Below are positions 33,859 to 41,696 of a stretch of 64,000 nt of DNA, piece by piece; position 1 is the first letter of the stretch, and the number at the start of each line of letters is the position of its first letter. Position numbers and translations under genes: made by a program. The notes beneath the pieces are model-generated. The model did not search any database and had not been told where the DNA came from. It saw nothing but the letters and a program-made list of their open reading frames with translations. Source of the DNA: Gammaproteobacteria bacterium (lineage in GTDB: Bacteria > Pseudomonadota > Gammaproteobacteria > JAPPPA01); assembly GCA_030425645.1 (NCBI GenBank), contig JAUHZK010000001.1, positions 62,001 through 126,000 of the forward strand, in the 5' to 3' direction.

Positions 33859-34266
33859 ATCTACTAAATAAACGATTGATCGTTTATTCTAAGATCTTTA
33901 GGGCTCAATGCAAGTAGCTGTAATGAAATTGCACTGTTTTGGCGCGTGATAGTGAAAGAAGCGACAAGAGCCAGCTAGGCCACTGGCCCTTAGTTGACCA
34001 AAACTACCGCTGACAACAAACCGTTCAGTTCCGAGATTTGGAGGGTGGCAGGAGGTTTCCCCAAGCTATTAGTGTTAAGCCTTTTCGGTCAGCGGCCGCC
34101 ATATACCAGACACTCCAAGTGCCAGAATTGGCGAGAGCTTTAACTCTGAAGACCGTCCCGCCGCTATAAACAAGCAAGCCTTGCAAAGCGCTTGCCAAGC
34201 TTTACCAGCTGGGTACACTGGGATGGCGCTCAGGCGTATTGATTTTTACTTTTTGGGAGAGACAAG
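33859..34266. other. 408-base intergenic region upstream of the first DUF3015 gene
   Basis: No gene is evident. It holds the cyclase promoter region with an inverted repeat (33867-33888), a small GCCAG/CTGGC hairpin (33970-33987), a distant complementary pair CCGCTGAC (34007-34014)/GTCAGCGG (34088-34095) and a candidate promoter for the DUF3015 gene, TTGCCA (34192-34197) and TACACT (34214-34219), spacer 16. A structured RNA in 34000-34100 is possible but unproven. Confidence 0.5.
33867..33888. promoter_or_regulatory. Perfect 22-base inverted repeat upstream of the diguanylate cyclase
   Basis: AATAAACGAT (33867-33876), TG, ATCGTTTATT (33879-33888). It begins 9 bases before the cyclase ATG (reverse strand). 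The length and symmetry suit a dimeric repressor site, for example of a TetR-type protein. Confidence 0.55.
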
Positions 34267-34719
34267 GTGAAGAAAATTTTAGCAGCTGCTGCGGTTGCAG
34301 CTATGCCGTTTGCTCCGGCCGCAATAGCAGACACGGATGTTGGCTGTGGTATCGGTTCAATTCTGTGGGAGGGGCAAACTGGTAAGGTTTCGCATATTCT
34401 CGCGGCTACCACTAATGGCTCATCGGGCAACCAAACCTTCGGTATTACCTTTGGTACTTTGGGTTGTGATGGTACGGACAAAGTTACATCACGAATGAAG
34501 CTAGCGGTTTATACCGATGAAAACCTTGACCAGTTGATGGTTGATGCGTCGCGTGGTGCAGGCGAATCATTGGATGTGTTTATGGAGCTTTACGGTGTAG
34601 ACGCTAGTCAGCGTGATGCCATGGCGGCCAAGATCCAAGACAACTTCGCAGCGATCTTCCCTAATGAAGATGTAAATGCCGAGGACGTGTTGAGCGCTGT
34701 TGATGCGCTAATGGCCTAA
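34267..34719 (+). CDS. DUF3015 family periplasmic protein, copy 1
   Basis: A 150-residue exported protein: Sec signal peptide to about residue 21 (PAAIA), then the DUF3015 pattern CGIGSILW, VSHILAATTNGSSGNQTFGITFGTLGC with paired cysteines, and a helical C-terminal half. The function of the family is unknown. It starts with GTG after GGGAGAG. The next gene, a DUF4105 protein, begins 21 bases after its stop with an intrinsic terminator inside its first codons, so most transcripts may end here. A diverged second copy with the same partner lies at 39306. Confidence 0.85.
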   Translation: MKKILAAAAVAAMPFAPAAIADTDVGCGIGSILWEGQTGKVSHILAATTNGSSGNQTFGITFGTLGCDGTDKVTSRMKLAVYTDENLDQLMVDASRGAGESLDVFMELYGVDASQRDAMAAKIQDNFAAIFPNEDVNAEDVLSAVDALMA

Positions 34720-34740
34720 TTGCAGAGGGTCAGTTACCCA

Positions 34741-36651
34741 ATGTATTGGCTCAAGCGGGCAGCGTGTTTAGCGCTGTCCGTTTTTTTTGTAGTGCCGAAT
34801 GCCGTCGCTGATACGGACGCCGCGGCTTGGCAACGGGCGGCGACGCAGCTGAGCTTATGGCAGCATCCGTACTGGCATAAACTATTGCACTATCAGCGTA
34901 GCGGCGATGGTGTGGTGAGCCTTGCCGGTGGTGAGAGGCTTTTTGTGCATGAGCAAGGCGCCAGCCAGCCGCAGCAAGAATTATTAGCAACGTTAGCGGC
35001 GTTTGCTGAAAATCGTTGGTTACCTCAGCGACAAGAGCATGCGCTTTGTGCATTCCCAGCACGATTGCGTTGGTTAAAACAGCGGTTACAACTGCGTGAC
35101 GCAGACATTCCCAGTTTTGAGTGCCCCAAGCGGGATCTCTGGCAGCAGGAAATTAACCCGACCTCGGCAACCCTAGTTTTTCCAGATGCCTATATCAGTA
35201 GCCCGGGCTCTATGTTTGGGCACACCTTGTTGCGGGTTAACGGTGCCAAACAAGGCGCCAGGGCTGGTTTGCTCGCCTACGCTATTAACTATGCCGCTGA
35301 TGTGCGTGGTGTGGGCCCGCTCGAGTATGCCGTTAAAGGTATTGCTGGTGGCTTCCCCGGTTTCTTTGGCTTGTTCCCCTATTACACCAAGGTCAAGGAG
35401 TACGCTCGCATTGAGCATCGGGACATCTGGGAATACCCGCTCAACCTAAGCGAACTGGAGCTGCAGCGCGTGCTGGAGCATGTGTGGGAATTAAAGCAGG
35501 TTCCCTTCCGCTATTTCTTCTTTAATCAAAACTGCTCATGGCAACTATTGGCCTTGTTAGAGATAGCCCGCCCCGGCGCGGAGCTGCTAAATGGCTTTGG
35601 GATTTACGCAATTCCCGTCGATACCGTGCGCCGTTTACAGCAACAGGGGTTTGTTGCTGCGCAACCGAAGTTGCGGCCATCGCGCCAACGAGCACTGGAT
35701 GGCGCTCGCCAAATTATGAATGCCGAACAGCGCCGCCTGGTGCGCCAGTTAATGTCTGGAGAGCGGCTGCCTAACTCCCCGGCTTTTGAGCAACTAACGG
35801 TAGCTGAGCGAGCTTTGGTATTTGATACCGCTTACGAGCTCCTGCATAACAACTACCGCCGTGGCCAAGGTGAGCGCGAGGTGGTGCTGCCTAGGGCTTA
35901 CGGAATTCTGCGTGCGCGTAGCGCTTTGGGGCTTGCGCCAGAACCACAGTTGTCCGCTGACATTGTGGCGCCAGATCAAGCGCATGCATCCGCCCGCTGG
36001 GGGCTGGCGCTGGGTAGTGATGCTCGCGGCACTTGGCTGGGTTTAGACATCCGCGCAGCGTTCCATGATTTGTTAGATCCGGCAGAGGGCTTTCTGCCGG
36101 GTTATGCGATTGATTTTGGGCGCTTGCAGCTACGCCACTATGTTGAACCCGCTCGCTTAGAGCTTGAAGAACTGACCTTGTTGTCGGCTATTTCGCGCAA
36201 TAATTGGAATGCTTGGGCCAAGCCTTTCTCCTGGGGTTTTAGTTTAGGGTTGAAGCGACCAGCCTGGCTTAAGGCAGCTGACGACGACCCTCGCCTCGGA
36301 TTTACTCTTGAGGCCGACGGTGGTGTCACCGTCGGTTCTGCAAAAAGCCATTTGATGCTTGGCATGGCCCTGGGCGCCCATTGGGGCTCCTTGTTAGACC
36401 GAGATGGCCGACTCGCAGCGGGCCCGAAATTGGCAGCCAAACTAGCGCTGTCAGACAAGCTAAGCGTAGTCTTTGAGACTCAGTATTTAGCCAGCCTTGC
36501 CGGTTTAGACATGGATGACTGGACTAGCGAGTTAGGACTGCAATGGCAGCTCAACCGTAACCAAGGGCTACGGCTGCAGGGCCGCTTAAGCCAGTTAGAG
36601 TCAGCGCCTAATGATCAGGAGTGGAGTCTGACTTGGTTGCGGTATTTTTAG
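34741..36651 (+). CDS. DUF4105 (Lnb N-terminal-like) exported protein, copy 1
   Basis: A 636-residue exported protein. The signal peptide is WLKRAACLALSVFFVVPNAVA, and its codons contain an intrinsic terminator. The N-terminal half is DUF4105: a conserved FGH segment (GSMFGHTLLRVN, His161) and an NC segment (FNQNCSWQLLALLE, Cys265). His-before-Cys is the order of circularly permuted papain-like enzymes, so a thiol hydrolase is possible (inference). The C-terminal about 200 residues look like a beta-barrel ending in an aromatic residue (WLRYF), suggesting outer-membrane insertion. I prefer ATG at 34741 with AGAGGG upstream over the in-frame TTG at 34720. Its 3' end overlaps the convergent exporter gene by 44 bases. 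Confidence 0.82.
   Translation: MYWLKRAACLALSVFFVVPNAVADTDAAAWQRAATQLSLWQHPYWHKLLHYQRSGDGVVSLAGGERLFVHEQGASQPQQELLATLAAFAENRWLPQRQEHALCAFPARLRWLKQRLQLRDADIPSFECPKRDLWQQEINPTSATLVFPDAYISSPGSMFGHTLLRVNGAKQGARAGLLAYAINYAADVRGVGPLEYAVKGIAGGFPGFFGLFPYYTKVKEYARIEHRDIWEYPLNLSELELQRVLEHVWELKQVPFRYFFFNQNCSWQLLALLEIARPGAELLNGFGIYAIPVDTVRRLQQQGFVAAQPKLRPSRQRALDGARQIMNAEQRRLVRQLMSGERLPNSPAFEQLTVAERALVFDTAYELLHNNYRRGQGEREVVLPRAYGILRARSALGLAPEPQLSADIVAPDQAHASARWGLALGSDARGTWLGLDIRAAFHDLLDPAEGFLPGYAIDFGRLQLRHYVEPARLELEELTLLSAISRNNWNAWAKPFSWGFSLGLKRPAWLKAADDDPRLGFTLEADGGVTVGSAKSHLMLGMALGAHWGSLLDRDGRLAAGPKLAAKLALSDKLSVVFETQYLASLAGLDMDDWTSELGLQWQLNRNQGLRLQGRLSQLESAPNDQEWSLTWLRYF
34753..34788 (+). terminator. 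Intrinsic terminator inside the signal-peptide codons of DUF4105 copy 1
   Basis: CGGGCAGCG (34756-34764) pairs with CGCTGTCCG (34772-34780) with one G-U pair, loop TGTTTAG, then T8 (34781-34788). The stem starts 15 bases after the ATG, so an initiating ribosome would cover it. It sits between the DUF3015 and DUF4105 reading frames. Confidence 0.8.
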
Positions 36652-38944
36652 TTTTGCCGTCGAGCTTAATCAGCAGCGGTGGCAAGAATAAGAAGTCGCA
36701 GACCAAAGCCAACAAGATCGTCAGCGAGGTTAGCTGACCCATGTGCTCTGTCAGCTGATAGCTCGACAAGCTAATGACTAAAAACCCTGCGGCCAGAATA
36801 ATGGTGGTTAGCGTCAAGGCGCTGCCCACATTATGGAAGGCGTAGCGCACCGCCTCTTCGGCCGATAAGTTACCTTCGCGTCTCGCGCGTAGGTACTTGC
36901 TAAGGAAGTGAACGGTATCGTCGACCACAATGCCGAGAGTCATCGAGCCCACAATGGCGAGGCTGATGCCGATCTTGCCGACCAATAAGCCCCAGAGGCC
37001 GAAGCCCATAAGTGCCGGGACAATATTCGGAATGAGTGAGATAAGGCCGATTCGCAATGAGCGCATCATTAACATCATCAGGCCAGAAATCATCACCAGC
37101 GCTACCAGCATGCCGCCGATCATACTGGTGAAGTTGCGCCGGGCAATTTGCGCAAACATCTGACCAATACCGACCGCTTCGGCATTACCTACCATGCTGG
37201 CGGGCAAGTTCGCCTGCATCCAAGCCTGGGCATTGCTGCCGAGCGTTGTTAGCGTGGTGGCATCTACTGTATCCATCAGCACGATAAAGCGAGTCAGCTG
37301 TTTGTCTGGGTCTACCATGGTGTTCAGGCTGAGGCCTTGTGGCAGCGAAAGCTCATAAAAGAACAAATACTGTGCTGCTAGTTCTTGGCTGTCTGGGATG
37401 CGGTACCAGGTCTCGTCGTCGCCATGCATGGTTTTATTCAGGCGTTTGTGAATATCCAGAATGCTGATGACTTTGCGGACATTGGGCTGCTCTTCATACC
37501 AAGCTTGGAGCTTGGCTAAAGACTGTAAAAATTCAGGGCTATTAACGCCGCCGGGCTCTTCGCTGCGCAGCGTATATTGCAGCTGCTGCATACCTACCAC
37601 TTTCTCATTAAGAAAGTCGGTGGCGCTGCGGAATGGGATTTCCTCTGAAAAGTATTCAGCGTAATTGTCGCCAAAGCGATTCAACGGAATACCCGCAGAC
37701 AGCGCTAGAATAACGACGCCAACGCCAAGCAATAGTTTGCGTTGATGTTGAATAACAAAGTCGGCAAGGCCGTCAGTCCATCGGGTTTGGCTGGCGGCTT
37801 TGCCTTTCGCTGGTAGCCACATCATCAACGCTGGCATAAAGAACACAGATAGCAAAAAGGCGAAAATCACGCCGACGGCGACGATATTGCCAAGATCGCG
37901 AAACGGTGGCGAGTCGCTGAAGTTCAGCGACAAAAAGCCAATGGCCGTGGTGATGGATGTCAAAAATACGGGTTGTAGATTCAGCCGTAGGCTTTCGGCC
38001 ATGGCCTGTGTTTTGGATTGGCGCTTCTCAATGCCGTAATAGTAGGTAACCAATACGTGTACGCAATCCGCCACCGCCAGCGTCATTACAATCATGCCCG
38101 AAGCCATGCTCGCAGCATTCATGGTAATTCCCATCCAGCCGGCGCTGCCGTAAGCAGCAAGGGTTGAGAGAATAACCACGGCCCACGTTGCCAAGGCTGG
38201 GATTAAGCGTCGGAAATAGGCGATCAGCCCAAACAAAATCAATAGATAGGCGGCTGGAAATAGGTGCGTTAGGTCATAGCGGGTGGTCTGCGCCATGGCG
38301 TCATTAAGCATAATGACACCACTAATATGAAACTGGTGGCCGGGGTATTTGCTGTCGATCTCAGCGGTTAAAGCGCGAATGGCATCGGCAACTTCTGGCA
38401 CTTCGGCTTCGAGATTTATGCGTGGCAACGGCGTGGTGATGTAGATAGCGGCCGAGCCGCCGTCTGCAGCGGCGGTATTGCCAACGATCTCATCGCTCTG
38501 CAAGGCAAAATCTTTGATGGCGCGAGCACGGTCTGCCGATATAGGCCCTTCTTCTGGTACTAGGGCCTCGACGATAATGTCGTCGCCGACTGCGTAGCTA
38601 TTCTGGAAGTTAGACAGGGAGGTTGAGCGCAAAGCATAGGGCAGCTCCCAGCCGCGATCGGTCAGTTCGCGAACTGCTGCTAGCGAATCCGGCGTAAAGA
38701 TATCGCCGTCATCGGCCTCAATCCCCACAACCAGCAATTCTTTCTGCTCAAACTGCGCTTCAAAATCTTCAAACGCCTGTAATTGCGGATTGTTCTTGCC
38801 AAAGTAAACGCGGTAATCGGTGGTTTGTTTTAGCTGGGTAATGCCGCTAAACGCAGCTAGCACAAGCAATAAGCTCGCTAGAACCATGGCGGCAGGCCGA
38901 TTTACCGTGAACAGTCTTAGGCTTTCAAAGTCGTTTTTATACAT
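36608..38944 (-). CDS. MMPL/RND superfamily exporter
   Basis: A 778-residue inner-membrane protein of the RND superfamily (COG1033 type). It has about 12 membrane segments in two halves, each with a large periplasmic loop after its first helix (DYRVYFGKNNPQLQAFEDFEAQF and GDNYAEYFSEEIPFR). The sterol-sensing-like middle region shows ADCVHVLVTYYYG and, in the second half, VDDTVHFLSKY, which carry the acidic residues typical of proton relay. No adaptor protein is adjacent, as is normal for MMPL/HpnN-type lipid exporters. It lies between two DUF3015-DUF4105 pairs, so a shared envelope-lipid role is possible but inferred from position only. Confidence 0.9.
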   Translation of the reverse strand: MYKNDFESLRLFTVNRPAAMVLASLLLVLAAFSGITQLKQTTDYRVYFGKNNPQLQAFEDFEAQFEQKELLVVGIEADDGDIFTPDSLAAVRELTDRGWELPYALRSTSLSNFQNSYAVGDDIIVEALVPEEGPISADRARAIKDFALQSDEIVGNTAAADGGSAAIYITTPLPRINLEAEVPEVADAIRALTAEIDSKYPGHQFHISGVIMLNDAMAQTTRYDLTHLFPAAYLLILFGLIAYFRRLIPALATWAVVILSTLAAYGSAGWMGITMNAASMASGMIVMTLAVADCVHVLVTYYYGIEKRQSKTQAMAESLRLNLQPVFLTSITTAIGFLSLNFSDSPPFRDLGNIVAVGVIFAFLLSVFFMPALMMWLPAKGKAASQTRWTDGLADFVIQHQRKLLLGVGVVILALSAGIPLNRFGDNYAEYFSEEIPFRSATDFLNEKVVGMQQLQYTLRSEEPGGVNSPEFLQSLAKLQAWYEEQPNVRKVISILDIHKRLNKTMHGDDETWYRIPDSQELAAQYLFFYELSLPQGLSLNTMVDPDKQLTRFIVLMDTVDATTLTTLGSNAQAWMQANLPASMVGNAEAVGIGQMFAQIARRNFTSMIGGMLVALVMISGLMMLMMRSLRIGLISLIPNIVPALMGFGLWGLLVGKIGISLAIVGSMTLGIVVDDTVHFLSKYLRARREGNLSAEEAVRYAFHNVGSALTLTTIILAAGFLVISLSSYQLTEHMGQLTSLTILLALVCDFLFLPPLLIKLDGKTKNTATKSDSTPDH

Positions 38945-39305
38945 GAGGCGTCGCTTTTTGACGTATACGATTGTCTACTTCGTGATGCGGGGATTATAGA
39001 ATACTAGGCGGGATTGGGTAGGCCTTACTAGCGACATTGATTCTGATGGGAATAGATTAACTTGGTCAGGCACAAGCACATCGGGCCGTGTGATCAATAA
39101 CCGCTTCCCTAAGCATAACTAGCGCGTCGGCTAGGCATTCGTTTTGCCAGGTTTTGTCTTTTACAGGACGATGCACGGCAGTCACGAGCGATTGCTATCG
39201 CGAGGTGAGCTATAAACGGATGTACAGTTGCAAAGATAAAACAGCCGACGCTAAGATGGCTAGGCGCAGAAGCGTAGAAATATATTATTTTTAGGAGCGA
39301 ATAAA
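38945..39305. other. 361-base intergenic region upstream of the second DUF3015 gene
   Basis: No gene is evident. It should hold the exporter promoter (reverse strand) and, for the DUF3015 gene, a candidate promoter TTGCAA (39228-39233) and TAAGAT (39252-39257) with an 18-base spacer. A short GCGAT/ATCGC hairpin lies at 39188-39201. AGGAG at about 39293 is the ribosome site. Confidence 0.5.
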
Positions 39306-39779
39306 TTGAAAAAATTATTGGTTGCAGCGGCAATGACCGTTCTGGCGTTATCCCCAGCACAAGCGAAGGATAGTAGCACTCGTGATTTCGGGGATATTTT
39401 GGGTGAGTGTGGCTTGGGTGCGATGTTGTTCCCAGATGACCGAACAGTAGCTATCATCACCAACATCACTTGGGACTTGGGTACTACCGCCGCTAGTTCG
39501 AACTCTTCTTCTCCTGGCACTTGTAAAGGTGGTCAAGCCGAAACGGCTAAGCTTGTTATGCAAAGCTACCCAGAGTTGGAGAACGATTTGGCGGCTGGTG
39601 AAGGCGAGCATTTAGCTGCCTTAATGAGTGTTGCTAACTGTGAAGCCGGCGCAGCTGGTGAGTTACGTGCGGACTTTGCAAGCGTTGTTAGTGCGGAAGG
39701 TTTTGCAACGCAAAGCCGAGAGGCGAAAGCGGAGTCGCTATACAATGTTGTGACAAATAGCAGCGCTTGCGCTGTATAA
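39306..39779 (+). CDS. DUF3015 family periplasmic protein, copy 2
   Basis: A 157-residue exported protein: signal peptide to about residue 20 (SPAQA), then ECGLGAMLFPDDRTVAIITNITWDLGTTAASSNSSSPGTC, the classic DUF3015 block, and a helical C-terminal part with further cysteines. It begins with TTG after TAGGAGCG. It is only distantly similar to copy 1 at 34267, so the duplication is old or the copies were acquired separately. The DUF4105 partner starts 12 bases downstream. Function unknown. Confidence 0.87.
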   Translation: MKKLLVAAAMTVLALSPAQAKDSSTRDFGDILGECGLGAMLFPDDRTVAIITNITWDLGTTAASSNSSSPGTCKGGQAETAKLVMQSYPELENDLAAGEGEHLAALMSVANCEAGAAGELRADFASVVSAEGFATQSREAKAESLYNVVTNSSACAV

Positions 39780-39791
39780 AAGAGGTGGTGA

Positions 39792-41696
39792 ATGACGTTC
39801 GCTAGAACTTCGTTCATCAAAGAAAACGCCCAGCTTAAACGCTGGGCGTTTTTTTTGTTGTATGGGCTATCTACTCTGGGCACTGCCGAGGCCGCTGGCT
39901 TACTTGAAAAGTCTCAACAAATGCGTCTCGCGGAATCTGAAGCTTGGAAACGCTTGCTACATATTGAAGATCCAGTAGGAGGCTTGGCGGAAAGTAGCGT
40001 CGTTGATTCTGAGTTCTTTCTTTCGGCAACTGATCATAAGCGGGTGAACCCAGCTAAAGAGTTGCGAGCAACGATAGAGGCCTTTAACACGCCGCCAATG
40101 GGCAACACGAACGATCATGCACAATGTAAATACCCAGCGAGAAAGCATTGGTTGCTGCATCAAACTGGTGTTCCTGAGGAAGTGTTGCCTGCCGTTGTAT
40201 GTCCAAATTTAGATGCATGGGCGAAGCTAGATAAATTGCAATCGGCAAGTCTAATGATGGTGACTGGCTATTTCGGTAATCCGGCCTCATCCTTCGGGCA
40301 CCTTATGCTAAAGCTCAACAATGGTGATACACCTGATGTTAAGTCGTTATTAGATGACGGCATTAATTACGGCGCAGCAGTGCCTGATAATGAACCAATG
40401 TTGGTTTACATCCTGCGCGGCTTGTTTGGTGGTTACCGGGCGGCGTTTAGCAATAAGCCGTTCTACAATACTGACCAGGTTTACACCCGCACCGAATTTA
40501 GAGATATGTGGGAGTACGAGCTAGATTTTTCAGATTATCAGTTGAAGCTCTTTGTGTATCACCTGTGGGAGCTTGTTGAGGCTGGATTTGTTTATTACTT
40601 TTTGGATAAAAACTGTGCCTATCGGCTTGCTGAGTTACTGGAGCTAGTTACTGGATATCGTTTCACGCCCAGGGCTCAACCTTGGTATATCCCTATCACT
40701 ACGTTTAAGCGTTTGAACGAGCTGCAACAGCGGCACGGCGGCCTAATTCGGAGCGTAAAACTTCAGCCAAGTTTGCAGCGAGAAGCTTATGCATTGGCTT
40801 CATCGCTGCCGAAACGGCTGTTAGCGCGTGTCAATGACTATATTAAATATGCGAATTCAGGGACTTTGCCGGAGTTTTATGATTTAAGCCGAAGTGAGCA
40901 AGTGGAAGTTGTCGACACATTGCTTAAGTATTACAACTACAAATTGGTAGCAGCGGAAGAGTCTAGGGGACAGGCATTAACCGACGCAAAAACAGAGTTA
41001 TTGAAACGGCGGTTTAAACTGCCAGATGGGCAGTATCAGCCGTTGCTTTCCTACCCTAGGCTATATGATCCGTCTAAGTTGTCCGGGCCTAATCGTTTCC
41101 AAGTTGGCGCAGCTCGAAGTCGGTCGGCAGATGACTTGATTACGATGCGTTATGCGCCCTATCACCAAGATTTGTTGATGAGAGGCAATTCAGAGAACCT
41201 AGCGTTCACCGCGGTGGACATCGGCGTTTCGTTAAGCAAAGATTCTCGTTTGCGGCTTGATCATCTGACGTTGGCGGATATTACCAAGATTAGGGCCGAG
41301 CCCGCTCCGTATAGAGACGAGGCTCGCAGCTCCTGGCGGGTTAGCATTGAGTCAGCCCGTAATCGGGACGACGATATGGTTACAACGGCGGAGGTTGGTA
41401 TTGGCCTAGCGTCGCAGCTGGCGCCTAACGTCGTTATATATGGCTTTGCCGATGGTTACGTGCAATCTGAACAAGAGCCAGTGGGGGCCGCCATTTCGTT
41501 AGGTGGGCTATACACATTCTTTGATGACGCCTTGAAACTGCAGACGGAATGGCAGTATCGACCGCACTCGAATTATGCCTCTATCCGTTGGTCGGCGAAG
41601 ATGCGTTATAGCTTTTCGTCAAAGCATGAGTTGCGAGCGGAAGCCGAAAACGTTGATGGCTCGATGTACCGGCTGGCTTGGAATTATCGCTGGTAG
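39792..41696 (+). CDS. DUF4105 (Lnb N-terminal-like) exported protein, copy 2
   Basis: A 634-residue exported protein and paralogue of the gene at 34741. The signal peptide LKRWAFFLLYGLSTLGTAEA is encoded by the right half of an intrinsic terminator (39823-39856). The conserved FGH (SSFGHLMLKLN, His170) and NC (LDKNCAYRLAELLE, Cys275) segments match copy 1. The C-terminal region is beta-rich, ending MYRLAWNYRW, as expected for an outer-membrane barrel. AGAGGTGG is the ribosome site. The arrangement DUF3015, embedded terminator, DUF4105 is the same in both copies. Enzymatic activity is possible from the His/Cys pair but unproven. Confidence 0.85.
   Translation: MTFARTSFIKENAQLKRWAFFLLYGLSTLGTAEAAGLLEKSQQMRLAESEAWKRLLHIEDPVGGLAESSVVDSEFFLSATDHKRVNPAKELRATIEAFNTPPMGNTNDHAQCKYPARKHWLLHQTGVPEEVLPAVVCPNLDAWAKLDKLQSASLMMVTGYFGNPASSFGHLMLKLNNGDTPDVKSLLDDGINYGAAVPDNEPMLVYILRGLFGGYRAAFSNKPFYNTDQVYTRTEFRDMWEYELDFSDYQLKLFVYHLWELVEAGFVYYFLDKNCAYRLAELLELVTGYRFTPRAQPWYIPITTFKRLNELQQRHGGLIRSVKLQPSLQREAYALASSLPKRLLARVNDYIKYANSGTLPEFYDLSRSEQVEVVDTLLKYYNYKLVAAEESRGQALTDAKTELLKRRFKLPDGQYQPLLSYPRLYDPSKLSGPNRFQVGAARSRSADDLITMRYAPYHQDLLMRGNSENLAFTAVDIGVSLSKDSRLRLDHLTLADITKIRAEPAPYRDEARSSWRVSIESARNRDDDMVTTAEVGIGLASQLAPNVVIYGFADGYVQSEQEPVGAAISLGGLYTFFDDALKLQTEWQYRPHSNYASIRWSAKMRYSFSSKHELRAEAENVDGSMYRLAWNYRW
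39823..39856 (+). terminator. Intrinsic terminator inside the signal-peptide codons of DUF4105 copy 2
   Basis: AAAACGCCCAGC (39823-39834), loop TTAAAC, GCTGGGCGTTTT (39841-39852), then more T to a total of eight. The stem is perfect over 12 bases. It starts 31 bases after the ATG, within the reading frame, encoding KRWAFF of the signal peptide. Confidence 0.92.

Follow-up and report, generated by a model that had tools for sequence, protein, structure and literature searches.

The DUF3015-DUF4105 gene pairs

The window (the whole stretch of 64,000 nt analysed here) contains two gene pairs on the forward strand, each comprising a DUF3015 gene followed by a DUF4105 gene:

34192-34219, plus strand: candidate sigma70-like promoter upstream of DUF3015 gene 1 (TTGCCA-16-TACACT, 9/12; a consensus match only)
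34267-34719, plus strand: DUF3015 gene 1, encoding a small secreted protein from a GTG start (PF11220, E 5e-40)
34720-36651, plus strand: DUF4105/Lnb-like gene 1 (PF25225, PF13387 Lnb_N and PF25222)
39306-39779, plus strand: DUF3015 gene 2, of a divergent subfamily (E 1e-10)
39792-41696, plus strand: DUF4105/Lnb-like gene 2, with its start at ATG 39792 and a good Shine-Dalgarno sequence (AGAGGTGGTGAATG) upstream of the ATG

The intergenic gap is 0 nt in pair 1 and 12 nt in pair 2. The likely start of DUF4105 gene 1 is ATG 34741, with TTG 34720 as the alternative, and its Shine-Dalgarno sequence is weaker and has a long spacing, whereas that of DUF4105 gene 2 is strong. A translation start further downstream, beyond the T-runs described below (e.g., GTG 34792), was rejected, since the protein would then lack the signal peptide found throughout the family. 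In the region around DUF3015 gene 1, promoter matches showed no excess over shuffled sequence. An MMPL-family transporter gene on the opposite strand stands between the two pairs, and its 3′ end overlaps that of DUF4105 gene 1 by 44 nt (36608-36651).

The products of both DUF4105 genes consist of Lnb_N (PF13387, formerly DUF4105; E 4e-50 and 1e-40) together with DUF7843 and DUF7840 domains. DUF4105 has been identified as the Bacteroides lipoprotein N-acyltransferase Lnb, a member of the NlpC/P60 superfamily whose catalytic residues are His and Cys (PMC12994826). The corresponding residues, H168 and C272, are invariant among 10 aligned proteins, and judged by these sequence features the window DUF4105 proteins appear to be Lnb-like, putative acyltransferases. 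For DUF3015, we found no described function in the literature. The first-pass annotation had called the two gene pairs strongly diverged, and indeed identity is just 28%, and the two DUF4105 proteins are separated by a 100%-supported split in the DUF4105 tree. Searches found no viral relatives of the pair 2 DUF4105, and no match for the pair 1 DUF4105 in the only same-genus genome searched.

Intrinsic terminators within signal-peptide codons

Near the start of each DUF4105 gene, the reading frame runs through a stable GC-rich hairpin followed by a U-rich tract, the structure of an intrinsic terminator:

34756-34788, plus strand: intrinsic terminator 1 (core stem 34756-34780, T8 34781-34788), encoding R-A-A-C-L-A-L-S-V-F-F
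39827-39856, plus strand: intrinsic terminator 2 (core stem 39827-39848, T8 39849-39856), encoding A-Q-L-K-R-W-A-F-F

The core stem arms are CGGGCAGCG...CGCTGTCCG in terminator 1 and CGCCCAGC...GCTGGGCG in terminator 2, where the stem can be extended by pairing of the A-tract with the T-tract. Terminator 1 (folded over 34745-34792) reached −21.5 kcal/mol (z −5.0; 0/200 shuffles equally stable) and terminator 2 reached −28.6 kcal/mol (z −8.2; no shuffle equally stable). Under the d'Aubenton-Carafa formula, with d > 0 taken as terminator-like, they scored 49.0 and 57.6, respectively. Neither element matched an Rfam family at the gathering score, and only weak sub-threshold matches were returned. 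Terminator 2 has A-rich flanks (39820-39857), such that the minus strand also reads as a stem with a T-rich tail and the element is possibly bidirectional.

The DUF4105 frame remains open through both T-runs, and the two stem-plus-T8 terminators lie inside the coding frames at the positions given in the first-pass annotation. The codons of pair 1 run ATG (34741) TAT TGG CTC AAG CGG GCA GCG TGT TTA GCG CTG TCC GTT TTT TTT, giving a signal-peptide start of M-Y-W-L-K-R-A-A-C-L-A-L-S-V-F-F, and those of pair 2 run ATG (39792) ... AAC GCC CAG CTT AAA CGC TGG GCG TTT TTT TTG (N-A-Q-L-K-R-W-A-F-F-L). As had been noted earlier, the T-run encodes Phe-Phe (TTT TTT) in both pairs. The Lys-Arg codons, likewise remarked on, are placed differently in the two, with AAG CGG at the opening of the stem in pair 1 and CTT AAA CGC (Leu-Lys-Arg) within the loop and the first part of the 3′ arm in pair 2. 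Counted from the A of ATG 34741, the core stem of pair 1 begins 15 nt downstream, the distance given in the earlier annotation, and that of pair 2 begins 35 nt past ATG 39792. Given that the genes are so tightly packed, a terminator of the upstream gene falls inside the signal-peptide codons of the next one, and this is tolerable because a T-run reads as Phe or Leu, which suits the hydrophobic core, and a GC-rich stem can encode Lys, Arg, and Ala.

Comparison with the rest of the genome

The genome scan covered 2.44 of 2.75 Mb, with coding sequences taken from a simple purpose-made ORF caller, and returned 622 terminators with d > 0, of which just 14 both scored d ≥ 20 and lay within a coding sequence in sense orientation. 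The pair 2 element ranked first (57.6) and the pair 1 element second (49.0) among these 14. When the same peptides were re-encoded with random synonymous codons drawn by genome codon usage, 0/3,974 recodings of pair 1 reached 49.0 (best 34.7), while 5/5,484 recodings of pair 2 scored ≥57 against the real 57.6; occasional matches occur in pair 2 because its peptide itself favors such a stem. On the basis of the scan and the recoding, a chance or peptide-driven origin was rejected. Across this genome, a terminator is carried by 2 of the 134 junctions with a gap of <20 nt, and these are the two window junctions.

Ten of the 14 in-frame terminators lie within the first 60 nt of an ORF (4/14 lie elsewhere). 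Several of the ten probably reflect mis-called starts, and the remainder look like terminators of upstream genes that extend into the next gene. Three similar cases are listed here:

C2:53503-53545 of the window's genome (G000, locus L174), minus strand: strong terminator (d 45.7, T9) in the first codons of recF behind dnaN, its stem and T-run encoding LQDFRCFENLELFF
C1:119682-119712 of the same genome (L211), plus strand: FMN_bind gene, overlapping the end of a Porin_O_P gene, with a terminator (d 41.7) in its signal peptide (SLLALLAGFFCFF)
C11:64149-64186 of the same genome (L274), minus strand: ZnuA-type gene directly behind a porin-like gene, with a terminator (d 25.7) at the end of its signal-peptide codons

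The upstream partners (dnaN, Porin_O_P, and porin-like genes) are probably well expressed, and the three cases suggest that start-proximal terminators are a general habit of tightly packed operons.

Conservation of the junction terminator

Loci were collected from named genomes and a sample of the class, with both families found by profile searches, resulting in 127 distinct adjacent DUF3015-DUF4105 junctions from Gamma- and Betaproteobacteria, Nitrospirota, and deltaproteobacterial MAGs. A terminator (d > 0) was present in 95 of these, about 30–67 nt after the DUF3015 stop codon, the hairpin being a median of 18 nt and the T-run a median of 44 nt from that stop. By the same rule, other co-directional junctions at the same loci carried a terminator in 9/129 cases, versus 40/59 target junctions. 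Stems from Pseudomonas (28 distinct sequences) also covary, with 5/8 pairs changed on both sides and none of 500 shuffles scoring as high. The hairpin terminator behind DUF3015 and ahead of DUF4105 is thus a conserved feature of the gene pair across several phyla, and among the 127 pairs examined its placement is that of a partial terminator, between conserved co-directional neighbors and upstream of or within the distal gene.

Stem and T-run are conserved unequally. Most of the 32 junctions lacking a scored terminator keep a strong hairpin in the same place with no proper T-run, as seen in several Pseudomonas, including P. aeruginosa PA7 (L025). Two tandem DUF3015 genes precede DUF4105 at five loci (L010, L142, L143, L144, and L146, in genomes G010, G039, G206, G353, and G365). 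In the literature searched, we found no mention of the DUF3015-DUF4105 junction.

Variable position relative to the DUF4105 start

The position of the element was scored in 92 loci with a callable DUF4105 start. In 82 of these, the T-run begins before the start codon, by as little as 11–14 nt in L102, L104, L161, L008, and L070 and by 55–290 nt in some relatives; overall, the stem lies anywhere from about −300 to +60 nt relative to the start. The other ten loci were scored as embedded, of which about nine hold on reading, namely the two in the window, L026 and L040 (Nitrospirota), L093 (a deltaproteobacterial MAG), L138, L155, L157, and L165, with the calls for L093, L138, L155, and L157 resting on GTG or TTG starts. 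L159 and the non-canonical-start loci L049 and L137 were left out of the embedded count owing to doubtful starts.

On the DUF4105 tree, a quick reconstruction with long branches, seven changes are needed to account for the embedded state, well-supported branches force at least three of them, and the two window embeddings look like separate events in two subfamilies. The loci L161 and L165, from a single genus, show a natural step from a terminator before the start to a terminator inside the ORF: L161 reads stem-T7-CATATG and the gene starts after the terminator, while in L165 (stem-T8) ATA replaces the ATG of L161 and the open frame now starts before the stem. Embedding is a recurrent by-product of tight gene packing. 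The first-pass annotation had argued from the retention of the element in two diverged pairs to a function at these particular codons, and had suggested a survey of homologues for stems at the same codon positions. That argument stands for the junction, where the terminator is conserved (95/127), and fails for the codon position, which is not, as the T-run precedes the start in 82/92 loci.

A probable partial terminator, with read-through into DUF4105

Each window element probably serves its DUF3015 gene as an intrinsic terminator and works as a partial terminator (attenuator) internal to the operon. Polymerases that initiate upstream of DUF3015 would mostly halt at the T8 and leave a short DUF3015 mRNA protected by the hairpin; the minority that continue past it would produce a DUF3015-DUF4105 mRNA, from which the Lnb-like enzyme would be made in small amounts. 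Termination at a T8 run after a strong stem is usually almost complete, and read-through may accordingly be very low. Every RNA holding the embedded DUF4105 start also holds the terminator, and hence DUF4105 expression would need read-through whatever the promoter. On these grounds, together with the conservation of the junction terminator, we infer an excess of DUF3015 over DUF4105 message, a proposal of the first-pass annotation that is well supported.

Inside both window DUF4105 frames, the terminated mRNA would have no stop codon, and the terminated RNAs would end in a stop-less DUF4105 fragment to be cleared by ribosome rescue; the genome encodes a tmRNA (C9:5293-5656). The distance from the DUF3015 stop codon to the core stem is 36 nt in pair 1 and 47 nt in pair 2. 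Experiments in an E. coli system showed that a ribosome positioned at a stop codon ceased to repress termination beyond ~27 nt, and that a terminator located 30 bp inside a second ORF lost only ~10% of its efficiency, as the polymerase is seldom caught by a ribosome over its first 100 nt (PMC4824070). Upstream expression from the same construct was halved because the terminated RNA lacked a stop codon (PMC4824070). Since both window distances exceed ~27 nt and the geometry resembles that of this construct, efficient termination and weak DUF4105 expression are predicted, with some DUF3015 mRNA expected to be lost via ribosome rescue where DUF4105 initiation is good.

The hairpin could instead serve mainly as a REP-like 3′ stabilizer or processing block of the DUF3015 mRNA, with differential expression arising through decay of the distal part. 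Most of the 32 terminator-less junctions, several from Pseudomonas among them, keep a strong hairpin without a T-run, consistent with such a role; a stabilizer, however, needs no T-run, and one follows the stem directly in 95/127 junctions and as T8 in both window copies, making this account unlikely.

It is less plausible still that the ribosome initiating or elongating on DUF4105 itself (or another factor) blocks the hairpin, so that translation drives read-through as in a conditional attenuator. In pair 1, a ribosome initiating at ATG 34741 would extend to the foot of the stem, at about 34756-34759, and pyrBI and the amino-acid leader attenuators couple in this way when pause sites exist (PMC4824070). 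The pair 2 stem, however, begins 35 nt past its ATG, too far for an initiating ribosome to cover, and the stem is ahead of the start codon in 82/92 loci; the stem-ORF geometry on which ribosome coupling would depend is not conserved (about −300 to +60 nt). The small loss of efficiency 30 nt into an ORF and the rarity of a ribosome catching up with the polymerase over the first 100 nt (PMC4824070) also disfavor the translation-coupled antitermination that the first-pass annotation had proposed for pair 1, the only pair whose geometry allows it. That the terminator merely closes a DUF3015 unit, with DUF4105 a separate gene under its own promoter 3′ of the hairpin, is highly improbable: some relatives do have room for one (55–290 nt between T-run and start), but in the window the starts (34741 or 34720; 39792) precede the stem, every DUF4105 message crosses it, and a downstream start would cost the signal peptide found across the family.

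Comparison with known systems

Partial termination within an operon, the reading we prefer, is known from the E. coli rpsU-dnaG junction (T1) and the rplL-rpoB attenuator. As in these systems, an intrinsic terminator would separate a small, abundant product from a downstream one that is scarce and depends on read-through. Their terminators lie between the genes, whereas both window copies occupy signal-peptide codons within the coding sequence of the downstream gene.

Terminators inside ORFs are also found in the ribosome-rescue genes arfA and brfA, the stem in arfA being cut by RNase III (PMC8012679). These yield a stop-less mRNA, as the window elements would, but their stem is near the 3′ end of the ORF and the stop-less product is the functional protein, whereas the window fragment would be a signal-peptide piece of ~16–21 residues and a functional product would need read-through. 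The W48 construct (PMC4824070), which carries the tR2 terminator 30 bp inside a second ORF, has nearly the same geometry, an upstream gene followed by an ORF whose first 30 bp precede the terminator, and there termination stays high while upstream expression halves through non-stop mRNA; W48 is artificial, however, and the window cases are natural and recurrent. The pyrBI attenuator similarly has its terminator within the first ~135 nt of an ORF (PMC4824070), although that ORF encodes a dedicated leader peptide and contains pause sites, whereas the window terminators fall in codons for the signal peptide of a 630-residue enzyme.

Implications

The window elements belong to a known kind, the operon-internal partial terminator, and what is unusual here is the dual-coding placement, with its predicted non-stop-mRNA consequence. 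Speculatively, signal-peptide codons may be a recurrent dual-coding home for operon terminators, whose stop-less 3′ ends could tie the upstream message to ribosome rescue, with tmRNA or ArfA destroying DUF3015 mRNA whenever translation of a terminated transcript begins at the downstream start. We hold this only tentatively; if true, it would constitute a built-in feedback between initiation on the second gene and mRNA stability of the first.

The junction terminator represents a conserved regulatory element, spread over several phyla, in an otherwise uncharacterized operon with an Lnb-like acyltransferase, and its embedded copies are natural cases in which one stretch of DNA is a terminator and a signal peptide at once. 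As these overlaps would yield stop-less mRNAs by design, they offer natural tests of how non-stop messages are handled, as well as of how far the ribosome influences intrinsic termination near a start codon.
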